Assembly: GCA_016235345.1 (NCBI GenBank) | Contig: JACRLG010000022.1 | Span: 1-64,000, forward strand | DNA length: 64,000 bases | Direction: 5' to 3' | Source: Deltaproteobacteria bacterium | GTDB taxonomy: Bacteria; Desulfobacterota; Desulfobacteria; Desulfobacterales; Desulfatibacillaceae | In this document: in pieces, positions 43,894 to 60,848 of the stretch | Layout of the letters: each line of letters begins with the position of its first letter | Position numbering within the stretch: the first letter of the stretch is position 1 | Made by a program: the position numbers and the translations under genes | Notes under the pieces: model-generated | The model's input: the letters and a program-made list of their open reading frames with translations, nothing else | Told to the model about the DNA's origin: nothing | The model's database searches: none

Positions 43894-45078
43894 ATGATAG
43901 GAATATCCAAACTCTACTGCGGCGGCGTGGAGCCCTCGGACGCCCTTCGCTACGGCAGGCATTCGGGCAGGCTTCCCTCGCACCTTCTCCAGTTCTCCGA
44001 AGACAAGAAACCCGTGGTGGTGTGGAACATGAGTCGGCGGTGCAATCTTAAATGCGTGCACTGCTACGCCCACGCAACCGCCCAGGCCGGGCCGGAGGAG
44101 CTTACCACGGCGGAGGGCAAGGCCCTCATCGACGACCTTGCCGCCTACGGAAGCCCGGTCATGCTCTTTTCCGGCGGTGAGCCGGTGATGCGGGAAGACC
44201 TGGTGGAGCTTGCCGACCACGCCGTAAAGCGCGGCATGAGGGCCGTAATCTCCACCAACGGGACCTTGATCGACAAGGCGAAGGCCAAGGCCTTAAAGGA
44301 CGTGGGCCTTTCCTACGTGGGCGTGAGCCTGGACGGCATGCGCGAGGTCCACGACAGGTTCCGGGGCGTAAAGGGCGCTTTCGACGAGGCTTTAACCGGC
44401 ATCGACAACTGCCGAGAGGCGGGCATCAAGGTGGGGCTAAGGTTCACCGTCAACAAGCGCAACGCCTCGGAAGTCCCGGCTGTCTTCGATCTATTAGAGG
44501 AGCGCGACATACCGCGCATCTGCTTCTATCACCTGGTCTACGCGGGCCGGGGCACCAAACTCATGGAAGAGGACCTCGACCACGCCGAAACCCGCGCGGT
44601 TGTGGACCTCATCATGGACCGGGCGCGCGATCTCTCCGACCGGGGCAGGCCCAAGGAGGTCCTAACCGTCGATAATCACGCGGACGGGCCCTACGTCTAC
44701 CTGCGGCTTCTGAAGGAGGACCCGGACCGGGCGGCCCAGGTGCTGGAGCTGTTAAAAATGAACGAGGGAAACAGCACAGGCCGGGGCATCGGCTGCGTTA
44801 GCTGGGACGGAAGCGTCCACGCCGACCAGTTCTTCCGCCATGTCACATTCGGAAACGTGCGCCAGCGCCCATTTTCCGTCATCTGGGAGGACCTCTCCCA
44901 CCCCATTCTCGCCAAGTTGAAGGACAAGCGCCCCCACGTCAAGGGCCGTTGCGCCGCCTGCCGCTGGTTGGACATCTGCGGCGGCAACTTCCGCGTCCGC
45001 GCCGAGGCCGCCACCGGCGACCTCTGGGCCCCCGACCCGGCGTGCTATTTAACGGATGATGAGATCAGACCTGCATAA
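43894..45078 (+). CDS. ahbC: Radical SAM enzyme of siroheme-dependent heme synthesis, AhbC type (12,18-didecarboxysiroheme deacetylase)
   Basis: 394 residues. The radical-SAM cluster motif is CNLKCVHC (Cys-x3-Cys-x2-Cys, near residues 51-58), followed by FSGGEPV. The C-terminal region holds a SPASM-like site (CAACRWLDICGG) and ends AEAATGDLWAPDPACYLTDDEI. The start IGISKLYCGGVEPSDALRYGR and WNMSRRCNLKCVHCYA fit the AhbC/NirJ group used by sulfate reducers and archaea to turn siroheme into heme. AhbD is a close relative; the N-terminus argues for AhbC. Other pathway genes are not in the window. Confidence 0.78.
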   Translation: MIGISKLYCGGVEPSDALRYGRHSGRLPSHLLQFSEDKKPVVVWNMSRRCNLKCVHCYAHATAQAGPEELTTAEGKALIDDLAAYGSPVMLFSGGEPVMREDLVELADHAVKRGMRAVISTNGTLIDKAKAKALKDVGLSYVGVSLDGMREVHDRFRGVKGAFDEALTGIDNCREAGIKVGLRFTVNKRNASEVPAVFDLLEERDIPRICFYHLVYAGRGTKLMEEDLDHAETRAVVDLIMDRARDLSDRGRPKEVLTVDNHADGPYVYLRLLKEDPDRAAQVLELLKMNEGNSTGRGIGCVSWDGSVHADQFFRHVTFGNVRQRPFSVIWEDLSHPILAKLKDKRPHVKGRCAACRWLDICGGNFRVRAEAATGDLWAPDPACYLTDDEIRPA

Positions 45079-45085
45079 AAGCACA

Positions 45086-45109
45086 ATGGCCGCGTGAAAA
45101 CGCGGCCAT
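45086..45109 (+). terminator. Hairpin after ahbC
   Basis: ATGGCCGCGT, GAAA tetraloop, ACGCGGCCAT. Very stable, but followed by GATTTAAAC rather than a clear T-run. Confidence 0.6.
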
Positions 45110-45139: not shown

Positions 45140-46588
45140 TCATATATAATTACTTCCGTCATCATATAATAATTCTAAATTCATCAACGCCTTAAACGGA
45201 ATCTCATGATGATCAATTTGCCAATCATAAAGATACTTTTCATAAGCTTTATCAAGCCTCTGAATTATTTCCTTTTTTGAAGTTATATTTAATAACTTTT
45301 TTAATCTATTAAAATGGTGCCTATTTGTTGCTCTTATAAAAATCTCAAAAGGCTTTCTATCATAAAATTCTTTATACACCAGCGTTTTTGGAAACCAATA
45401 ATACCCAGTGCTATTATTCAATATCCATCTAAGGCATAAAATGAAATCTGCCTGCATTATGCTTTCAAAAGGCAATGGTTTTATATCAGCCCTATTATGA
45501 ATTAAATCAGCTGTTAACGAAATTCTATTCAGGTTCAATCGCTTATTTCTATTCTCTAAGCCCTCAATATAATTGTTAAATGAACTAAATGACTGCAATT
45601 TTCCACCATTTTTCATCAAGTAGTAATCTTCACTTAAAAATAAATCTAATAGTTCATATTTATTATAACGAATAAGCGTAGCCGCTAAATAGATAAATAG
45701 CTCCATATTGAAAAATTTATAATGATCAAACCATCTTTTATTATATCTTTGCATGTCTTGTGCCGGATAATTAAATTCTAACGCTTTTTCTAAAAATGCA
45801 TGAATAATGTTAAAGGACTCGCCAGCTACCTGAGAGTTAACAACTAACAATAAATACTCAACAAATTGGTCGCGATACGGCTTTAATCTTGCGATGCCAT
45901 CAACTATTTGCTCATCAATATCTTCACTTTCACCCTGAAATCTGATGTCTTCCATCCCTTCCAAAACCCGATCAAGGAAAATATTTCCAAGTATGCCTGC
46001 ACTTGGCTTGCCTGCTAACATCGCCTCCTTGAAAGCTGCAAAAGCATGTTGGCTGGTTCCGGCCCTTGGGGATTCCTCCAATAAATAAGCCGGGGGCTTA
46101 CCGCGTTTGGGCTTTGTTAGCAATGGCCTTTCATATATATTTCTTATAAGTTTTTCATATTCAGCATAGTAATTTTCTGTTTTGGCTAAGTTAATGTACA
46201 TTCGTGTTCCTAAAAAGGTCGGCAACCATGGATTTCCATCTTCTTTAAACTCTACAACAACAGGTATAAATTTTTCCTGTTTCACCTTGGAATATACTTC
46301 TATCGAAATAATTTGTGATTCTGTCCCTACTCCTCCTTCTCTTGCATCAGCTTTTTCCGCATATTTTTGGTCAGAAATGATGATTACTTTTGATATCAGA
46401 GGGTCAGTCACCATCTGTTCCATAAATGCATATTTGTCATGCCCTTCCCTCAATTCCCACTTATCAAGCACTACATTGACACCGTCGCTCATAAGGTTTT
46501 CCGAGAGCTTAATTATGAAATCTTCATGTTGAGGCGAGCTCCAGCTATATGAAATGAATACTCTAGGGGTTTCTAAAGTCGTGGGCAT
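45140..46588 (-). CDS. SEFIR/TIR-domain protein, AT-rich and probably acquired
   Basis: 482 residues. The N-terminal 150 residues carry a SEFIR/TIR-type fold: RVFISYSWSSPQHEDFI, VVLDKWELREGHDKYAFME, VIIISDQKYAEKA, and SQIISIEVYSKVKQEKFIPVVVEF. The remaining 330 residues are helical with no family I recognise. Such proteins often act in NAD-cleaving or signalling antiviral defence, but I see no proof of catalysis. The gene is far richer in A/T than its neighbours. A good promoter (46617-46645) and a single isolated position suggest a self-contained unit. Confidence 0.8.
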   Translation of the reverse strand: MPTTLETPRVFISYSWSSPQHEDFIIKLSENLMSDGVNVVLDKWELREGHDKYAFMEQMVTDPLISKVIIISDQKYAEKADAREGGVGTESQIISIEVYSKVKQEKFIPVVVEFKEDGNPWLPTFLGTRMYINLAKTENYYAEYEKLIRNIYERPLLTKPKRGKPPAYLLEESPRAGTSQHAFAAFKEAMLAGKPSAGILGNIFLDRVLEGMEDIRFQGESEDIDEQIVDGIARLKPYRDQFVEYLLLVVNSQVAGESFNIIHAFLEKALEFNYPAQDMQRYNKRWFDHYKFFNMELFIYLAATLIRYNKYELLDLFLSEDYYLMKNGGKLQSFSSFNNYIEGLENRNKRLNLNRISLTADLIHNRADIKPLPFESIMQADFILCLRWILNNSTGYYWFPKTLVYKEFYDRKPFEIFIRATNRHHFNRLKKLLNITSKKEIIQRLDKAYEKYLYDWQIDHHEIPFKALMNLELLYDDGSNYI

Positions 46589-46616: not shown

Positions 46617-46645
46617 ATATTATGATTCATGTATTACATTGTCAA
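46617..46645 (-). promoter_or_regulatory. Promoter of the SEFIR gene
   Basis: Minus strand: -35 TTGACA (46640-46645), 17-nt spacer, -10 TAATAT (46617-46622), followed by AAGGAG before the ATG. The gene therefore does not depend on read-through from the S24 repressor gene upstream. Confidence 0.72.
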
Positions 46646-46699: not shown

Positions 46700-47383
46700 T
46701 TATAATTCTTTTCCAACCCACACCACCCTTCCTATGATGACCACCGAGGCGAGGTCGGTTATGGTGTAGTCGCGGTGGCCTTCGGCAATGTTGTCCGAGC
46801 GCACCAGAAGGCTTCCGGGCTCAAGGAAGAGGCGTTTCACCTTCAAAAGCGCCTCCCCTCCCACCACGTCGTCCATGAAGGCGTAAATTTTCCCCGAAAG
46901 CACGTCGGTCAACCGGTTCTTGGAGGTGTCCACCAGGACCAGGTCGCGGTTTCCTATGGTGGGGCTCATGGAGTCGCCCTCCACCTCAAGGGCCACCAGC
47001 CGGTTCACCGGGGCAATTTTGGAGAGCCAGTCCCGCCGGAAAGCCACCTGGAAATCCACCTCCCCCGCGTCGGAAAAGGCCCAGGAGCCGCCCCCGCCCG
47101 AAAGCCTGGCCCTGTGCTTGGGAATCTGCGCAAACTCGCCCTCCCGGTCATCCTCCCTCATCCGGCCCTCGCCGGTTACGAGCCAGTGGAAATTGACCCC
47201 CCGGTCCACGGCCAGCCTGTAGAGGCGCTCCCACGGGAGCGAATCCCGGCTTTTCCAGTTGGCGAAGGTCTGGGGCTTGACGTCCAGCGCAAGGGCCGTC
47301 TGGCGGTCGGATTTCGTGTTCAGAATCACGGCCACGCGATCCAGGATGCTTTCCGCATTCAAAATGAAGTTCTCGCCCGGCAT
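46700..47383 (-). CDS. S24-family (LexA/CI-like) repressor with N-terminal helix-turn-helix
   Basis: 227 residues from the ATG at 47383 (CAGGAGG upstream). The N-terminal part resembles the phage CI helix-turn-helix (ILNTKSDRQTALALDVKPQTFANWKSRDSLP). The C-terminal S24 peptidase domain has VEGDSMSPTIGNRDLVLVD with the catalytic Ser and LLKVKRLFL with the candidate Lys, so self-cleavage is possible. It has no recognisable cleavage-region match to LexA. Normal GC content and absence of phage genes point to a resident regulator. Confidence 0.87.
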   Translation of the reverse strand: MPGENFILNAESILDRVAVILNTKSDRQTALALDVKPQTFANWKSRDSLPWERLYRLAVDRGVNFHWLVTGEGRMREDDREGEFAQIPKHRARLSGGGGSWAFSDAGEVDFQVAFRRDWLSKIAPVNRLVALEVEGDSMSPTIGNRDLVLVDTSKNRLTDVLSGKIYAFMDDVVGGEALLKVKRLFLEPGSLLVRSDNIAEGHRDYTITDLASVVIIGRVVWVGKEL

Positions 47384-47544
47384 GGTGTCCTCCTGACAAA
47401 AAAGCAAACAGAAGCAGAGGTGTCTTGCTTTCAAAAAATTGGAACTTCCGGCCTGACCCGCTTCAAAAGCCTGATTATTCTCCAATTTTTCGTCCAGATA
47501 CGATATTTGTGAGATAAAATCAATAAAAATTCACTCAAATTGGG

Positions 47545-52590: not shown

Positions 52591-55500
52591 ACATCCGGCC
52601 CTTGATCCAGGAGCTATATATCCCCATTCCAGCTATGGCCGCCAGTATGGCCAGAGACAGGAGCCAGCAGGCCCCGGACGAATTTTTGGCCACCGTCTCC
52701 ACGAAGCAGGCCCCGCCCGATGCCACGCTCCCGGCCTCGCCTATGGCGTCCGGGCTTCCGGTGTTCGCGCCGCCGATGCCCGGAGGCGAGGGCGGGGTGC
52801 GGTTAAGGGTCGATGCAAAGGCCGTACCGACTCCCCTTGAAAGCAGCCTTGCCGCGCTTGCCAGGAAGGTGTCCTTTTCATTGGCCCCCACCAGCTCCCC
52901 GAAGGCCGGAACGGAAATCCTTATGATGACGTCCTGCTTCTGCGGGTTGAACACGAAGTAGCCGGTGTTGGCCTTCATGATATTGGTGACCACGTACCCG
53001 TTGTCGCCGTCCAGGGCGTTGGGCGGGTCATAGTCGTAGAGGGGCTCGCCCGAAAGTGGATCGGCTCCGTAGGCGTCGGTGGGAGCAACAAAGGTCTGGC
53101 CGTCCAGGGAACGCTCCACCGCGCTCCAGTTCATTTCCCTGGGGAAGGGGTTTCCGATCATGTTCCAGCCGGGTATGAGCCTTAAGTAGAACGGGTCGGG
53201 CGAAACGGCGAGGCCCGGCACCGATACGGTTTTCGTTGCGCGGCTTATGGCCCAGAAGGCCCGCCCGGCCTCAAGGGGGAAGCGCTCGCTGAAATCCGCT
53301 GCGTCGCCTTCCACGTAATACTCGTTGGGGTTGCCCCCGGCGAGAAGGGCGTTGTCCACGCCGAAGAGCCGCCACATGCGGTCGTCGTAGGTTCCAAGGT
53401 TGGCCGGGTCGGACAGAATCCCGGTCAGGTTTTCGGATGAAGCCGCGTGGGCCGGGAAGCACACCATGCGGTAGTCGGCCACCGTGCTTCCTGCGGCCAA
53501 GGTTTTTGTGAAGGTGCTTGGTTCCGCCACCGTGAAAAGCGAGAAATGCGGAGTGGAGAAGGTAAGGCGCTCGCTTCCGGGAGTGGAATCCCTGCCCGTT
53601 ATGGGCAGGCCCACCCAGCGGCTCTTTACGGAATCATAGGTAAGAGCCACCAGATTGTTCAGAACCGCTCCCCCGCCCACCAGCCCGGACACGGGAACGC
53701 CCACCAGCACGTTTTGGGCAAAGGCCATGCCCGAAGGCTCCACAAGGGCCTTTAAGGTGGAGTTCTCGAAAAGATAGGGCCAGCCGAGAAGCACCCTGGC
53801 CGCCGTAATGTCGAAGGGGGCCGGGGCCGCGCCCGCAGGCACGAAAAAGCTCCATCCCAGAAGGTCGCCCGACCCGATGTTGAAGCTGTTGTCCACCGCC
53901 GGGTTTTCCACCGGCATGGTGTAGACGGGCGAGGTGTTCAAGAGCACCACCTCAAAAGGCCCTGACACCAAGCTGAAAGCCTCAGGAGCCGCCGGGGTCG
54001 AATCCGTGATCCTTATGAGGGCCGGATCCACGCCGTCGCCGGTGGGTCCGACGGGCACCAAGGTGAAGGCCCCGTTGGTCTTTCCGTCAACAAGTCCCGT
54101 GAGGTTAGCCACTGTCCCGGCCCCGCTGGCCAGGGCCACGCTGTAGGGCGGGGTTCCACCCGTGATGTTGAAATCAATCGGCTGGGGAGTCGCGCCGTAC
54201 AGGAAGGCCGTGCCGCTCATGGGCGAAAGCGACAGGGCCGGGACCACGGTTATGGTGAAGGCCTGGCCTTCGGCGGTGGCGTTTCCGGCAACCACCTTGG
54301 GAACCAGGGAAGTGGATGTTCCGACAACGCCGCTGCCCGGCGTCCAGTTGACTATGGCCGGTGATGCGCCGAAAACCGGCTGGTTGAAGGTAAGTCCGTC
54401 GGGGACCGTTCCCAGGAGTGAAAAATCCAGCGGATCCACCGCCGTTTCCCAGGACGCGGTAAATTCCAGGCAGAAGGGCCGGCCCTCCATGGCGTAATAG
54501 AGGGGAGCCGCCACCTTGGGCACAGGAGCCGTGAGAGAGTCCCTGAGCTCATAGCAGCCTATGTCGAAACGCCCGCCCACCGGACGGTTCACTGCCCTTA
54601 TGTCGATGCCCACGTAGAGAGGCTCGTCGGCGATGGGGGCCGGATCAAGGGCGTCCTTGGCCGGAGAGGTGGGGCCGGGCCGGTAGTCGCCGTTGTCGCG
54701 GTCAACGAACATCGGGTCGAACGCGATGTCGCCCGTTCCCATGGCTATGCCGAAATATTCGCCGTCGTCGTTGCCCCACACGATGTTGCGCCCAAGGGCC
54801 GGGGAGCCGTTAAGCCTGTTGACGCCGTAACGCCCGTTGACGGCCAGTATGTTGTAATAGACCTTGGCGCTGGAGTTGGCCAGGTTCACGCCGTCGTAGT
54901 TGTTGTCCGTTATGGTGTTGAAGGAAATAACCGGCTGGGGAAAACCGGCGTCCCCGGTGTTCTGGTCGTAGGCGTAGACGCCGGAAACCCCGTTCCAAAA
55001 AATGAGGTTGTTTTCCAGCACGTTGGCTTCGTTGGCGGTGATGAGCACGCCGTCGCCGATGTTTTCCGTTATGCGGCAGCCGGAAATGACGTTGCCTGTG
55101 GTTCCCTGGGAGTGGGCGGAAAGCTCGACGCCCGCCACCCCGCCGTTTATTATGGTGAAGCCCTTCAGGATGAAGTTGTCCGTGCCGAAAAGGGTGACAA
55201 CGGCCAGGTTGGCGTTGCCCTCCAAAATCGTGGTTTCAGGGTTCTCGCCCACGAGCCTGATGCCGGAGTGCCTCTCGCCAAGCTCCAGGGTCTCATGATA
55301 GGTTCCCGGATGCACCAGGATGGTGTCGCCGCCCGTCGCGTCCAGAAGCGCCCCGGTTATGGTGGCGTATTGATTGGGCACCTCGAAGGTGGCGTTTTCC
55401 CTCACGGTGAAGTTTATGGTGTCGTCCCCGGCTATGGGGTTTGAAGCCCCGTCCATGCAGTAAATCCGCACAGAGTGGGCCGTGCCCACGGTCAGGGAGG

Positions 55501-58500
55501 GGGTGAAGGACACCGCGACGTTTTTGGGGTCTGTCGCGTCAATCGTCAGCGTTGCGCCCGGAACCGCCACGTTGTCCAGCCAGACCGCGATGGAGTCGGT
55601 CCTTATGTCGGAATCAGCGTCCGAAACCGTGAGCCGGACAAGGGGAAAGGTTCCCACGGCGCCGCTGCCGTCGGCAGGGTCGGAGGACGCCAGGAAGGGC
55701 GCGGTGGTGTCCTTCACGAAACGGCGGACTTCGGAAACCGCCCGTCCCCAGGGGTCCAGGGCGTCCAGGCCGCCCAGGGCCACCACCCGCCACCAACCGG
55801 CCATGCTTTCCCACGAAAGGCCTTCGGGAAGGGTAAGGCTGTAGCTTCCTCCCCTTCCGTCATCGGCCAGCGGGAAGGAGCCTATGAGGCGGCCTAAGTC
55901 GGACGAGGAGAAGACCTCAACTATATAGGCCGCCGCCCCCGGCACTCCGTTGAACGTGAGCTTGGGCGGCCAGCCCGTTATGCCGTCGTTTGCCGGGTCC
56001 AGAAGGGCCGGGACCTGGTCGAAGACCCTGACTCCCCTTTGGAAATAAGCCGCGTTGTTGGCCGAGTCGGTTATGGTGACGCCAAGGTTGTAGTCACCCG
56101 CCTCGATGGCTGCGGGGCTGTTTGCGGGGGTGCGGTAGGCGGCCAGAAAGTCGCCGGGGCCGAGATAGGCCGATTCGGTGGTGAGGTTAAAGGTAAAGGG
56201 GATTTCGGAAATATTGCCCGCCACCTCAAAGGTTTCGCCCGGCCATGCAAGATCGCGGTCCGTCGCCAGGGCGTCAAGGCCGATGAAGTAGCCGGAAGGC
56301 GTCTTGGTCAAATCCGGCCACGGCCCGCCGCCGGTGGTCAGCCGCTCGAACTGCGGCGTCTTGTTGGCGAAGCCCGCCGCCGTGGTGAACGAAAATTCCT
56401 CAGGCTGGGCTGCAGTGCCCGAAAGGTCCTTCACCTGGGGGGTGACGCTTATGGTGTAGGTTTCGCCTGGCTCAAGCCTTGCGAAGTTCATCTGCGGCTT
56501 CTTCACCAGCGAAAGGCCGTGGTCGGGCCTGCGATATTCGATGTCGAAAAAGCCCGTGACATCGACGCTGTCCGAATCCCTGATCTCGATGGAGCCCGGA
56601 ACCATGCTTGCCGGGTCAATGTCGCGGGAGGGATAAAGGATTATGGCCGGGTTCGCCGGGTCGACGTCCGTGGCCCCGCTTATGGGAACCATGAAGGCCG
56701 GAGCGCCTGCATACGGGGCTCCGGTCTGGAATTCCCAGGTAAAGATCGAGGCCGGCGCGTTTCCGGACATGTCCCTGATGCTTCCAAGGGTCACCCTGTA
56801 CCAGGAATTTCCGGCAAGGTCGGCTTCCGGCAGCACCGACACCCGGTGGCCGAAGCCCTCAGCCGCAAGAGGGATATTCTGGACGACAAGCCCCCCCGGC
56901 CCGTCCAAGAGCTCAAGTGTGACGTTTCCGGCAAGGCTCGAAGGCTTCATCGCCTCGCTGAACCAGGCCCCTATCCAGCGCCCGTCGCCCTTCCTGGCCC
57001 CGGTGACGGAAACCCCGGTGGCCCCGTTTCCCGGAAGGTGCGACACCACGAAGGGCTTCACGCTCTCCGCGCCCCTGGCCGTGGTGAAGGTCCACGCACG
57101 GTCGGCTGTCTCGCCCGCAGGCTCGTAACCGGCGGCATCCCGCCCGAACCAAGAGGCCCTGTAGGCCGTTCCGGGTTTGAATGCCACGTTGGGCGTGAAT
57201 GTGAAGGTGTCGTCCGAAAGGACGTAGGAGCCCCACTCTATGGTTCCGCCTATGATGCCGCGCAGGGAGTCGTGCACCACGTTGCCCCACTGGTCTAAGA
57301 GGAGCAGGCCGACTGAGGCGGTATTCATGGACTTATTGAAGGTGATGGAGACGTTGCTTCCCACCGGCGCGTTTTCCATGCCGGCCATGGGGACCGTATC
57401 TATGGCCTGTGGCCGGGCCGCAGCCGGATCGCTCACGAAAATGGTCTGGACAAGCTCGTGAACCGTCTGGCTGTTTACCTCAGACGTTGCCCAGTCGATC
57501 CCGTTTTCGGGCGTTATGGCCATAACGCCGATGCCGGTGGGATCGGTGAGCGTTATCGTGTTGCCCGAAACATCGGCCTGGACCGCATCTCCGGGGCGAA
57601 GAGCGCGCACCCTGGTTTCGGGAACGTACTCCACCGCGCCGTTGGCGTTCTGGGGGCTTATGTCCAAAAGTTTCCTGTAGACATAAACCTGGCCCGGCAC
57701 GGGGTTGTCCACGATTCTTCTGAAAAAGCCCGCGACGGCGTTGTATTGCTCGGAATCCACGGGAACCCCGCCTTCCATCAATCCGCCCTGGGCGTTGAAG
57801 TCCGCCACGGCTATGGGCGTATCCCTGTCGAAGATATCGATGTTGAGGCGGCTTATGCCGGTGTCGTTCACCGCGACCTCGACCGTCACCCAGCGCTGGT
57901 AGGGAGCCGCCTGGGCAGGCCCGTCAAAGGTGCGGGTCACGGCAAAGGGCATGGCGGTGGCCACGGCGTTGGAACTTACGGCCAGCACGCCCATTTCGTC
58001 ACCGTCTGCGGCAAGGCTCGGCAGGTCCGTCCACTTGTAGCGGCTGGTGGGGGAGTTGGGCATTTCGACGTAACCGGGCGGCAGGGCGTCGTTCTGGGGC
58101 CCGCCGTACATGGGCATGTAAAGGTGCTGGGCGAAAACGTTCTCCACCGGACGCCCGGCCATCCAGTCAACGTCCGGAAGCTGAATCTGGTCCTGGCCGC
58201 CCGTTGGCCTTCCCAACCACACCTCGCCGCGCGGCTGTACGGGCAGGTTCGGGTTATCGGCCCCGTCAAAATGGTCGCGGGTTGTTTCGACGTGGAAATT
58301 CTTTCTTACCGTGAGGTTCATCACGTCGTAATAGGGAAGGTCCAGGGAAGGAATTTCCGTGATCCCCCCTGACACGGCCAGGAAGGCTTTTTGAGCCTGC
58401 CCGCCGCCCGGACGCCTTGCCGTCACCGTATAGGAAACGCCTTGCGCCGAGGCGGCAAGGCCGTGGAGGGTGTAATTGCCGGACGTGTCCGTGACGGCGT

Positions 58501-60736
58501 AACCGGCCAGCGCGCCGCTCGAATCCGTGACAAAGACGGTGGCTCCCAATATGGGGTTGCCATTGTCGTCATAAACGGTTCCCGTGGCCTGGGTCACATC
58601 CGCGCCTGGCAGGTCAAGCGCCACCGGTGTCTCGCTTCCGCCTTCCACCACGATCCCCAGGGCCTTGTCGAGGACCGTGATCTGATCCGGCCTGTCGGGA
58701 GTCTGGACGTTCCAGACAAGGTAGATGTCGTAGGTTGCCGGGCACAGGGGGGCCAGCATGGCCGCGCCCGGCTGGCTGTTTATCTCCCCTTCCCTGGCGG
58801 TTTTCAGCCGGGCAATGTCCTCGGCTTCCACCGGGGTCGTGAGAAGGCCCTGGGCAATGGCCAGAACGTAGAGCCCGCCCTCTGGGGGCGTGACCCAGGC
58901 CGGGTTGGCAGGCACGGTCACGGCTACGCTTCCCGAAACCTCCCCGAAATGGACCGTGAGGTCGGGGGCGTTTACCAACAGGTTTTCTGCCAGATCCATG
59001 GCGGTTACAGTAACCGCTATTGTGCAGGAGCCGAAGCCGCTCCAGTTGTCGTCAGCCTCTGCCGAGATGAAGTGAGTGCCAAGGGGCAGCACCAGCCGGT
59101 ACATGCCGTCGCAGGCCCTGGACCAGGCGGAAAAATCGAGTCCGTCCGCGCCCACTTCCAGGCACGAAAGGTTTCCTCCGAATTCATCCTTCACAAGCCC
59201 GGCGACGACGGCCCCCCTAAGAAGGGTGATCGACCCCATGTTGAGGTTCTGGCCCGGCCCGAGGCTCACAAGGCGTTCGGCAGAGGCGCACAAAAGGGTG
59301 TCCTCGCCGGGTATCACCGTTATGTCGCCAAGTCCGGGCGGCAGGCAGGGCAGGAAGAAGCTGCCATCCGTTCCGGTTTCCACAGCCCGGTCAATGTCCA
59401 GCCCCTTGGTATGATACGAAACCGCAGCGCCCGCCACCGGCTGGCCGTCCGGCGAAAGCACCACTCCCGATACCGTGGCTCCGGGGGCAAGGGCGAAATC
59501 GAAGCCCGCGACATCTCCCACAAGGTCCACGGGCCTTGAATCCATCCCAAAGGGCCCGGCAAAAAGATAGACCTTTACGGTTCCCTTCCCCGGCGGCAGG
59601 TTGGTGAGGGTGTAATCGCCGTTGGCATCGCTTATGGCGGTCATCCTCTGGCCCGCGTCATTGTCGTAAACAACGGTGATGGCCGGGATGCCCAGGCCTT
59701 CGGCGGAGATCCTTCCCCTTACGGCGTGTCCGTTGTCGGCGTAAATGAAATCAACCAGGGACCCGCCCGAAGCCTCGGAAACGGCGTAAAGGCAGACGGG
59801 CGCGGGGGTTACGAGGTCTTCGTTCACCACAACACCGGCGGTAACGCTGTAGCAGCCGGGAGCCACGTACAAGGTGTAGTCGCCCGCGATATCGCTTGCG
59901 GCCCACATCCAGAAGCCGGTTTCCTGGCGCGGGCTGGCGGTGACCCACCCGAAGGAAACAGGGCTCTGGTCGGCCCTGGTGAGCTTTCCGCGAATGACCG
60001 ACGTAAGGCCCGCCGCTTCCCTGATTTCCTCACGGGACAGGGCCGACGAATAAATCCTCACCTCATCGATGGAGCCCAGAAAATGCCCGGAGCCGACGCC
60101 TATGGTGATGGGGGCCGAGCCGAGAAAGGGCTGGCGGATATAGGGGGTGGGGTTGAACAGGATTTCGCCGTTTATGTAGATGGACAGATAGATGCCGTTC
60201 CACACCGCAGTGATCTGGGTCCACTTGCCGGGGGAAAGCGCGTAATCGTGCACCGCCTCGCCGTCGAACTGGCTTCCGTCCCAGGTTCCGTCCGGGGAAA
60301 GCCGGAACCTCACCGATGAGCCGTCCTGGATGAGGGCCCAGGAAAACTGGCCCGCGCCCTGGCTGCGGGAGGCTATCACCCGCATCTCGCCGGGGGTGAC
60401 GTCATCAGGATTGACCCAGGCGCACACCGAAAACGGCCCTTCCGTGTTCATTCCTGCCTGAAAGGGCACAGTCACGGAGGAATTGGAATCGAAATAGAGG
60501 GCCTGATCGGGCCTGCCGAGGAAATCCCTTGTCCAGGCCGCGCCAGATATGGTCCCGTTAAAGCCGTTGGGCGAAGAATCATAGGCCGTGGCTCCGCTGC
60601 CCTCGCTGAAGGCCCAATGGCCCGATAGGGCGTCGAGGCCCTGGGAGGCAAGGCTCTCGGACGGAAAAAACACCGGGAAAACAGCCATCGCCACCAGGAT
60701 GATCGTGACTGCGGTGACCGGAATGGATCGATTCAT
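52589..60736 (-). CDS. Giant secreted multidomain surface protein (LamG, carboxypeptidase-regulatory-like, Ig-like and beta-helix domains)
   Basis: 2715 residues from the ATG at 60736 (GGGAGG upstream). Signal peptide: about residues 1-30. A LamG/concanavalin-like domain spans about 33-245 (GHWAFSEGSGATAYDSS; IDEVRIYSSALSREEI). Carboxypeptidase-regulatory-like modules follow to about 790. Big_5/SbsA-type Ig-like modules lie near 1105-1455, with another Ig-like stretch near 1672-1769. A parallel beta-helix follows near 1782-1975 (TTGNVISGCRITENIGDGVLITANEANVLENN style rungs). The end has a Gly/Ser/Pro linker, a Cys-containing motif (GGACFVETV), one membrane helix and a basic tail. Probably cell-surface anchored; role possibly adhesion or polysaccharide binding. 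Confidence 0.88.
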   Translation of the reverse strand: MNRSIPVTAVTIILVAMAVFPVFFPSESLASQGLDALSGHWAFSEGSGATAYDSSPNGFNGTISGAAWTRDFLGRPDQALYFDSNSSVTVPFQAGMNTEGPFSVCAWVNPDDVTPGEMRVIASRSQGAGQFSWALIQDGSSVRFRLSPDGTWDGSQFDGEAVHDYALSPGKWTQITAVWNGIYLSIYINGEILFNPTPYIRQPFLGSAPITIGVGSGHFLGSIDEVRIYSSALSREEIREAAGLTSVIRGKLTRADQSPVSFGWVTASPRQETGFWMWAASDIAGDYTLYVAPGCYSVTAGVVVNEDLVTPAPVCLYAVSEASGGSLVDFIYADNGHAVRGRISAEGLGIPAITVVYDNDAGQRMTAISDANGDYTLTNLPPGKGTVKVYLFAGPFGMDSRPVDLVGDVAGFDFALAPGATVSGVVLSPDGQPVAGAAVSYHTKGLDIDRAVETGTDGSFFLPCLPPGLGDITVIPGEDTLLCASAERLVSLGPGQNLNMGSITLLRGAVVAGLVKDEFGGNLSCLEVGADGLDFSAWSRACDGMYRLVLPLGTHFISAEADDNWSGFGSCTIAVTVTAMDLAENLLVNAPDLTVHFGEVSGSVAVTVPANPAWVTPPEGGLYVLAIAQGLLTTPVEAEDIARLKTAREGEINSQPGAAMLAPLCPATYDIYLVWNVQTPDRPDQITVLDKALGIVVEGGSETPVALDLPGADVTQATGTVYDDNGNPILGATVFVTDSSGALAGYAVTDTSGNYTLHGLAASAQGVSYTVTARRPGGGQAQKAFLAVSGGITEIPSLDLPYYDVMNLTVRKNFHVETTRDHFDGADNPNLPVQPRGEVWLGRPTGGQDQIQLPDVDWMAGRPVENVFAQHLYMPMYGGPQNDALPPGYVEMPNSPTSRYKWTDLPSLAADGDEMGVLAVSSNAVATAMPFAVTRTFDGPAQAAPYQRWVTVEVAVNDTGISRLNIDIFDRDTPIAVADFNAQGGLMEGGVPVDSEQYNAVAGFFRRIVDNPVPGQVYVYRKLLDISPQNANGAVEYVPETRVRALRPGDAVQADVSGNTITLTDPTGIGVMAITPENGIDWATSEVNSQTVHELVQTIFVSDPAAARPQAIDTVPMAGMENAPVGSNVSITFNKSMNTASVGLLLLDQWGNVVHDSLRGIIGGTIEWGSYVLSDDTFTFTPNVAFKPGTAYRASWFGRDAAGYEPAGETADRAWTFTTARGAESVKPFVVSHLPGNGATGVSVTGARKGDGRWIGAWFSEAMKPSSLAGNVTLELLDGPGGLVVQNIPLAAEGFGHRVSVLPEADLAGNSWYRVTLGSIRDMSGNAPASIFTWEFQTGAPYAGAPAFMVPISGATDVDPANPAIILYPSRDIDPASMVPGSIEIRDSDSVDVTGFFDIEYRRPDHGLSLVKKPQMNFARLEPGETYTISVTPQVKDLSGTAAQPEEFSFTTAAGFANKTPQFERLTTGGGPWPDLTKTPSGYFIGLDALATDRDLAWPGETFEVAGNISEIPFTFNLTTESAYLGPGDFLAAYRTPANSPAAIEAGDYNLGVTITDSANNAAYFQRGVRVFDQVPALLDPANDGITGWPPKLTFNGVPGAAAYIVEVFSSSDLGRLIGSFPLADDGRGGSYSLTLPEGLSWESMAGWWRVVALGGLDALDPWGRAVSEVRRFVKDTTAPFLASSDPADGSGAVGTFPLVRLTVSDADSDIRTDSIAVWLDNVAVPGATLTIDATDPKNVAVSFTPSLTVGTAHSVRIYCMDGASNPIAGDDTINFTVRENATFEVPNQYATITGALLDATGGDTILVHPGTYHETLELGERHSGIRLVGENPETTILEGNANLAVVTLFGTDNFILKGFTIINGGVAGVELSAHSQGTTGNVISGCRITENIGDGVLITANEANVLENNLIFWNGVSGVYAYDQNTGDAGFPQPVISFNTITDNNYDGVNLANSSAKVYYNILAVNGRYGVNRLNGSPALGRNIVWGNDDGEYFGIAMGTGDIAFDPMFVDRDNGDYRPGPTSPAKDALDPAPIADEPLYVGIDIRAVNRPVGGRFDIGCYELRDSLTAPVPKVAAPLYYAMEGRPFCLEFTASWETAVDPLDFSLLGTVPDGLTFNQPVFGASPAIVNWTPGSGVVGTSTSLVPKVVAGNATAEGQAFTITVVPALSLSPMSGTAFLYGATPQPIDFNITGGTPPYSVALASGAGTVANLTGLVDGKTNGAFTLVPVGPTGDGVDPALIRITDSTPAAPEAFSLVSGPFEVVLLNTSPVYTMPVENPAVDNSFNIGSGDLLGWSFFVPAGAAPAPFDITAARVLLGWPYLFENSTLKALVEPSGMAFAQNVLVGVPVSGLVGGGAVLNNLVALTYDSVKSRWVGLPITGRDSTPGSERLTFSTPHFSLFTVAEPSTFTKTLAAGSTVADYRMVCFPAHAASSENLTGILSDPANLGTYDDRMWRLFGVDNALLAGGNPNEYYVEGDAADFSERFPLEAGRAFWAISRATKTVSVPGLAVSPDPFYLRLIPGWNMIGNPFPREMNWSAVERSLDGQTFVAPTDAYGADPLSGEPLYDYDPPNALDGDNGYVVTNIMKANTGYFVFNPQKQDVIIRISVPAFGELVGANEKDTFLASAARLLSRGVGTAFASTLNRTPPSPPGIGGANTGSPDAIGEAGSVASGGACFVETVAKNSSGACWLLSLAILAAIAGMGIYSSWIKGRM

Positions 60737-60848
60737 GGGGGACCTCCCTTGTGAAGCGCGGTGCGGTCTTTTTTTTCGATTTATATGAGCGCCCGAAGCA
60801 TTCCGCGCCTGTCTGGCGCAAGAAATAATCCGGGCCACTATAATGAAA

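Follow-up and report, generated by a model that had tools for sequence, protein, structure and literature searches.

The one-gene defence family bSEFIR, called SEFIR in papers, was reportedly described by Millman et al. in 2022. The features that its members share are a single gene, an N-terminal SEFIR domain, a long helical C-terminus, carriage by mobile elements and AT-rich DNA. A likeness in the effector domain connects the family to Thoeris, a system of two genes with a signal molecule in which the ThsB protein contributes a TIR-type NAD-processing domain. According to published work, SEFIR systems deplete NAD+ (PMC12926258; PMC11084316; PMC11559045) by cleaving it to NAM and ADPR (PMC12774641), and a SEFIR system tested in S. 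thermophilus, where it acted on a narrow range of phages, is listed under NAD+ depletion (PMC12322248). Recognition of the major capsid protein by SEFIR is stated as well (PMC10884400, citing Stokar-Avihail 2023; PMC11364771), and one row of a table places SEFIR among the systems that phages escape via mutations in structural proteins (PMC10286901). In the case of DSR2, the depletion of NAD+ is triggered by the phage tail tube protein (PMC10981675). DSR2 and other SIR2 defence proteins would thus share with bSEFIR the depletion of NAD+ upon a structural trigger from the phage, whereas they carry a SIR2 domain in place of SEFIR; one plasmid-borne SIR2 protein, discussed below, has the C-terminal module of bSEFIR.

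Family membership and carriers of the gene

The gene studied here is a full-length, ATG-started open reading frame of 482 aa on the reverse strand (45140..46588) of the window, by which we mean the whole 64-kb stretch of DNA that was analysed. Its product matched the PADLOC bSEFIR model PDLC03957 (7.1e-104, aa 6-459 against profile positions 36-369 of 412) and, near end-to-end and with the C-terminus covered, PHROG 11745 (9.9e-130, aa 5-462). The latter is a family of phage proteins (482 positions) to which no function has been given, whereas the copy described here is chromosomal. Judged by these matches, the gene is a new copy of the already described one-gene defence bSEFIR and no new kind of defence. 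An earlier note, made on the DNA alone, had proposed a one-gene SEFIR/TIR antiviral module; that reading is supported, for what is in fact an established system.

The assignment can be specified further for the two halves of the protein, which is 29-43% identical to the 12 relatives that were aligned first. The C-terminus alone found no match to the PADLOC model at 1e-3, and hence it is mainly the SEFIR domain that accounts for the score on this model, on which proteins of the SEFIR-NB-ARC and SEFIR-NACHT types likewise obtain 154-245 bits. The C-termini of 35 out of 58 aligned relatives do reach it (best 2.5e-32), and the C-terminus of this gene aligns with those of its relatives. We have therefore filed the gene as a bSEFIR with a diverged C-terminus. 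The mean identity in the alignment is 26% for the C-terminus versus 52% for the SEFIR part, and the phage trigger may therefore differ from that of the relatives. A Pfam scan of the protein identified no NTPase family, the feature that would have placed it with the SEFIR-STAND (NB-ARC/NACHT) proteins.

The base composition of the gene is foreign to its surroundings, as the earlier note had observed. Its GC content is 34.6%, versus a mean of 59.2% (sd 2.6) and a minimum of 51.7% in 597 other segments of 1449 bp from the same 64 kb. Both parts of the gene are AT-rich (37% GC for aa 1-150 and 34% for the remainder), and the composition shifts within some 150 bp of the gene ends. No second bSEFIR copy was found in the 4.0-Mb genome, the sole other match being a stretch of 37 residues (E 0.4), and a search for similar DNA in E. 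coli genomes returned no match.

The relatives reside on phages, prophages and plasmids. A profile scan of the viral contigs of IMG/VR found 87 matches, of which 80 loci were kept and 69 had a full-length ORF (55 at 90% identity; the counts that follow use all 69). A P2-type gene is located near 27 of these 69, and in 21 a P2-type portal gene lies within 1.5 kb, at a distance of 14-141 bp in all but one and convergent with the SEFIR gene. In P2, the tin and old genes sit at this end of the genome. In Klebsiella phage ST15-OXA48phi14.1 the SEFIR gene is flanked on one side by the portal gene and on the other by small genes located after the replication gene. Plasmid copies occur in Pseudomonas luteola (by P2-like genes), Bacillus velezensis (by phage-type genes), Leptospira, Deinococcus and Acinetobacter. 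Thirty homologues, hand-picked and not fully independent of each other (the C-terminus of L045 is identical to that of L056), were without exception AT-richer than their own flanks, with a mean of 36.9% versus 48.4% GC. AT-richness thus is a family trait, and the possibility raised at the outset, that the homologues would occur only at conserved chromosomal sites with normal composition, fails. Some redundancy is present among the loci: L043 and L074 refer to a single contig, and the protein of L043 is found again in L005.

The genes beside the homologues vary. PADLOC, applied to 150 of 186 neighbour ORFs and read without a background control, indicated Septu PtuA/PtuB, a type IIG restriction enzyme, PD-T4-2 and others. 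Directly after the SEFIR gene on plasmid p4 of Leptospira interrogans (L046:11438-12409) we observed a gene for a nucleoside 2-deoxyribosyltransferase. Two relatives are disrupted: a break after the SEFIR part divides the copy on a Paenibacillus larvae plasmid (L050:9977-11418) into two frames, the second holding the C-terminus, and that on pSymA of Sinorhizobium medicae (L137:4956-7726) is interrupted by an IS3-family element. Closer to the window, bSEFIR is rare: five of 59 related genomes, that of the window included, match at 1e-3, the only other full-length bSEFIR among them being in a genome of the same family (G006) and in another setting, and the bSEFIR model at 1e-20 is reached in 10 of 395 genomes of the phylum, again counting the own genome.

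The gene stands alone on a chromosome, and the family scan of its neighbours detected no mobile-element gene. It could thus be a degraded or silent remnant left by an old mobile element, all the more because relatives such as those of Paenibacillus and Sinorhizobium do decay. Nevertheless, the frame is open over its full length, the residues that are invariant throughout the family have been kept and a promoter-like sequence is present, and we therefore regard an inactive remnant as unlikely.

The effector domain and the proposed mechanism

The N-terminal part, aa 7-163 (46100..46570, reverse strand), constitutes a SEFIR/TIR effector domain. Its SEFIR/TIR character, recognized before from the letters alone, was confirmed by Pfam (SEFIR 1.1e-17, 65.2 bits versus a cut-off of 23; TIR_2 7.3e-14). 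The solved prokaryotic SEFIR structures 5y8e and 5y8f, which comprise the effector domain only, are sequence relatives (best 4.6e-35) and the closest match to the domain; the model of the domain superimposes on 5y8e with Z 21.4 and rmsd 3.0 over 153 aligned residues at 44% identity. The SEFIR domains of IL-17 receptors and various TIR domains, including those of SPARTA, SARM1 and AbTir, follow in the structural list.

Glu90 (codon 46319-46321, reverse strand) is present in all 58 aligned sequences. The structural alignment pairs model residues 8..152 with SARM1 residues 562..700, and its ends put Glu642, the catalytic residue of SARM1, between model residues 88 and 94. On this basis Glu90 is the putative catalytic glutamate, and the alignment ends suggest its equivalence to the catalytic Glu of TIR domains. 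The search for such a residue, advised in the earlier note, has thereby yielded an invariant candidate at the expected place. The appearance of IL-17 receptor folds among the structural matches would also suit a SEFIR domain that merely recruits partners, as a scaffold without enzyme activity like that in eukaryotic IL-17 signalling. However, the invariance of Glu90, a prokaryotic SEFIR domain as closest structural match, the occurrence of the same C-terminal module in a SIR2-domain protein and the NAD+ depletion reported for SEFIR systems (PMC12774641; PMC12322248) make a scaffold highly improbable.

All in all, we are rather confident that the gene is a horizontally acquired, single-gene bSEFIR that acts by abortive infection through depletion of NAD+, most likely with a C-terminus that would sense the phage capsid, SEFIR domains that would assemble and Glu90 serving in the cleavage of NAD+. 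In the uninfected cell the protein would be inactive. Upon infection, a product of the phage would be bound by the C-terminal helical module, the major capsid protein being the probable one. The SEFIR domains would then come together and, by means of an active site that contains Glu90, cleave NAD+; the infected cell would thereby stall or die before the release of phage. Of this scheme, the analysis itself established the family membership, the domain architecture, the invariance of Glu90, the mobile carriers of the relatives, the foreign base composition and the pairing of the C-terminal module with other effector domains. The depletion of NAD+ and the response to the major capsid protein are taken from the papers on relatives, and the activity of this copy, the sensor role of its C-terminus and its activation by assembly are inferred.

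Surroundings of the gene

The gene is situated between the 3' ends of two genes. On the left, and convergent with bSEFIR, is ahbC (43894..45078, forward strand), which encodes 12,18-didecarboxysiroheme deacetylase (NCBIfam TIGR04546, 770.6 bits, above cut-off); on the right is a regulator with a CI-type HTH and an S24 peptidase domain according to Pfam (46700..47485, reverse strand). Neither is part of the system. The interval in which ahbC and bSEFIR converge contains a 10-bp hairpin (45086..45109, reverse strand) that is a possible terminator. Upstream of bSEFIR, at 46617..46645 on the reverse strand, we found a sigma-70-like promoter sequence (TTGACA-17-TAATAT, 10/12 matches). The consensus promoter claimed in the earlier note thus has a site to correspond with, although its weight as evidence is small, since the AT-rich region holds 13 promoter-like sites versus 6.5 (sd 2.4) in shuffles, i.e. 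twice the count.

PADLOC was run on 42 ORFs of the window. These derive from 51 non-overlapping ORFs of at least 100 aa, from which ten were left out (bSEFIR itself, plus nine that looked like antisense or overlapping frames) and to which one PilZ-like ORF was added. At 1e-10 these 42 ORFs contained no other defence gene, no match to a Thoeris model and none to a nucleotide cyclase model for CBASS or Pycsar; the description of the neighbours as housekeeping or regulatory, with no further defence gene, was borne out in this respect as well. The thsA (SIR2-SLOG) partner that would belong to Thoeris is likewise absent among the 42. One ORF matched the pVip (viperin) model, which we read as a cross-match to the radical-SAM gene ahbC. 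Further along, the window also contains an ORF of 2749 codons when read from the first GTG (52592-60838, reverse strand), which the PADLOC run covered.

The adjacent regulator, on the same strand, could make bSEFIR a toxin-like gene in a prophage-type switch instead of a phage-triggered sensor, but this is very hard to reconcile with the pairing of regulator and acsA in a same-genus genome in which no bSEFIR was found, with the own promoter-like site of bSEFIR and with the varied neighbours of its homologues.

Regarding the acquisition of bSEFIR, that same-genus genome (G001), with its S24-acsA pair, offers no clean empty site, as ahbC was not found in it at cut-off, and different genes lie 3' of ahbC in other members of the family. 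Nor are there flanking repeats of the insertion type; the direct repeats, of 12-17 nt, look like chance. In G006 a different AT-rich gene of 227 aa is located downstream of ahbC (L032:714-1397, local GC 24-45%), for which neither Pfam nor PADLOC gave a match. Considering this gene, foreign DNA may have landed repeatedly on the 3' side of ahbC.

The C-terminal module and its exchange between effectors

The remainder of the protein, aa 171-482 (45143..46078, reverse strand), is conserved family-wide and is our proposed phage sensor. When modelled alone it obtained a pLDDT of 92.2 and a pTM of 0.92, with a fold that is all-helical save two strands of three residues, and no Pfam family was assigned to it; the helical and unassignable C-terminus of the earlier note stands. 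According to the confident model, it is a family-specific helical module. Foldseek searches with the model against PDB and BFVD returned nothing at 1e-3, and a profile search of PDB sequences nothing below 0.17. The best VIA-align match, to a designed helical repeat protein, had a Z of 9.5 and an rmsd of 4.3 over 166 aligned residues, which is below the threshold of about 13 for helical proteins and does not imply a new fold. The idea that the C-terminus would belong to a known non-defence family found no support in the Pfam, Foldseek-PDB and PDB-profile searches. The literature searched, in which few subscription papers are included, makes no mention of a shared C-terminal module, which is no proof of the module being unreported.

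A profile built from the 58 bSEFIR C-termini was used to search genomes and found, besides SEFIR proteins, one protein with a non-SEFIR N-terminus in genome G210, a member of the phylum of the window (L135:1447-2895). By tblastn this protein matched the C-terminus of the P. luteola SEFIR protein (4e-7) and that of a 'SIR2 family protein' on plasmid p5 of Azospirillum argentinense (WP_137118764.1, L136:7140-8897; 1e-6). An HMM of the module, built without these two proteins and run on 2555 ORFs, recovered the G210 protein at 1.1e-39 and the Azospirillum protein at 2.5e-20, whereas no match came from the 2555 reversed ORFs at E <= 1 or from 400 shuffled copies at E <= 10. Neither of the two proteins was matched by a SEFIR HMM. 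The N-terminus of the Azospirillum protein contains Pfam SIR2_2 (1.1e-10), and that of the G210 protein a CAP12/Pycsar-type TIR domain below cut-off (21.5 versus 24.7 bits, 2.5e-4). The sequences GAGVS, TTNFD and PHG in the former and NPNVLIELG in the latter are motifs typical of SIR2 and TIR-like enzymes, respectively.

Both genes have mobile surroundings. The TIR-like gene adjoins a phage-type integrase, and the SIR2 gene adjoins a gene for a NACHT protein and has integrase and TniQ/TniB transposition genes nearby; neither has a conserved partner beside it, the upstream genes being unrelated. In the tree, which is read here as unrooted, the C-termini of these two proteins form a cluster with support 1.000. 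This may reflect two exchanges, one with SEFIR as either its source or its destination and another that involved the TIR-like and SIR2 domains. Searches for more cases gave none. On viral contigs, the C-terminal profile detected 19 loci, all of them on contigs already listed for bSEFIR and none with a further swap, and scans of the viral contigs with the TIR-like and SIR2 proteins singly detected no relative. Phage records held none for the TIR-like protein and matched the SIR2 protein through its N-terminal aa 1-235 only, and in plasmids the C-terminus of the latter found itself only. The module was found in 5 of 395 genomes of the phylum (one TIR-like) and in 3 of 389 of the class (with G598 outside the inspection of N-termini), both counts including the genome of the window, and in 1 of 26 of the class of G210. 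With so few matches, the swap rests on two proteins.

SEFIR itself, on the other hand, is found fused to NB-ARC/TPR or NACHT domains in proteins of related genomes that resemble STAND immune receptors (L007 and L010 in G052, L040 in G338). Since the module occurs with TIR-like and SIR2 domains and SEFIR occurs with STAND sensors, both halves of the gene are exchangeable, and this is what a combination of effector and sensor should look like. We consider it somewhat probable that the C-terminal ~310 residues are a portable module for phage sensing, to which interchangeable NAD-degrading effectors of the SEFIR, SIR2 and CAP12/Pycsar-type TIR-like kinds have been joined. If so, it is the sensor, rather than SEFIR, that should define the family, and the proteins with SIR2 and TIR-like domains would be undescribed one-gene defences that maybe answer to the same phage protein.

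The analysis places a member of a known phage-defence family on a further chromosome. For the unassigned half of bSEFIR it provides a structure model of high confidence and a conserved core, together with evidence that this half is an exchangeable unit. Moreover, it indicates two unnamed candidate defences, the SIR2 and TIR-like proteins that carry the module. The phage-sensing part of a one-gene, NAD-depleting defence thereby becomes directly testable by comparing proteins in which the halves have been swapped naturally.
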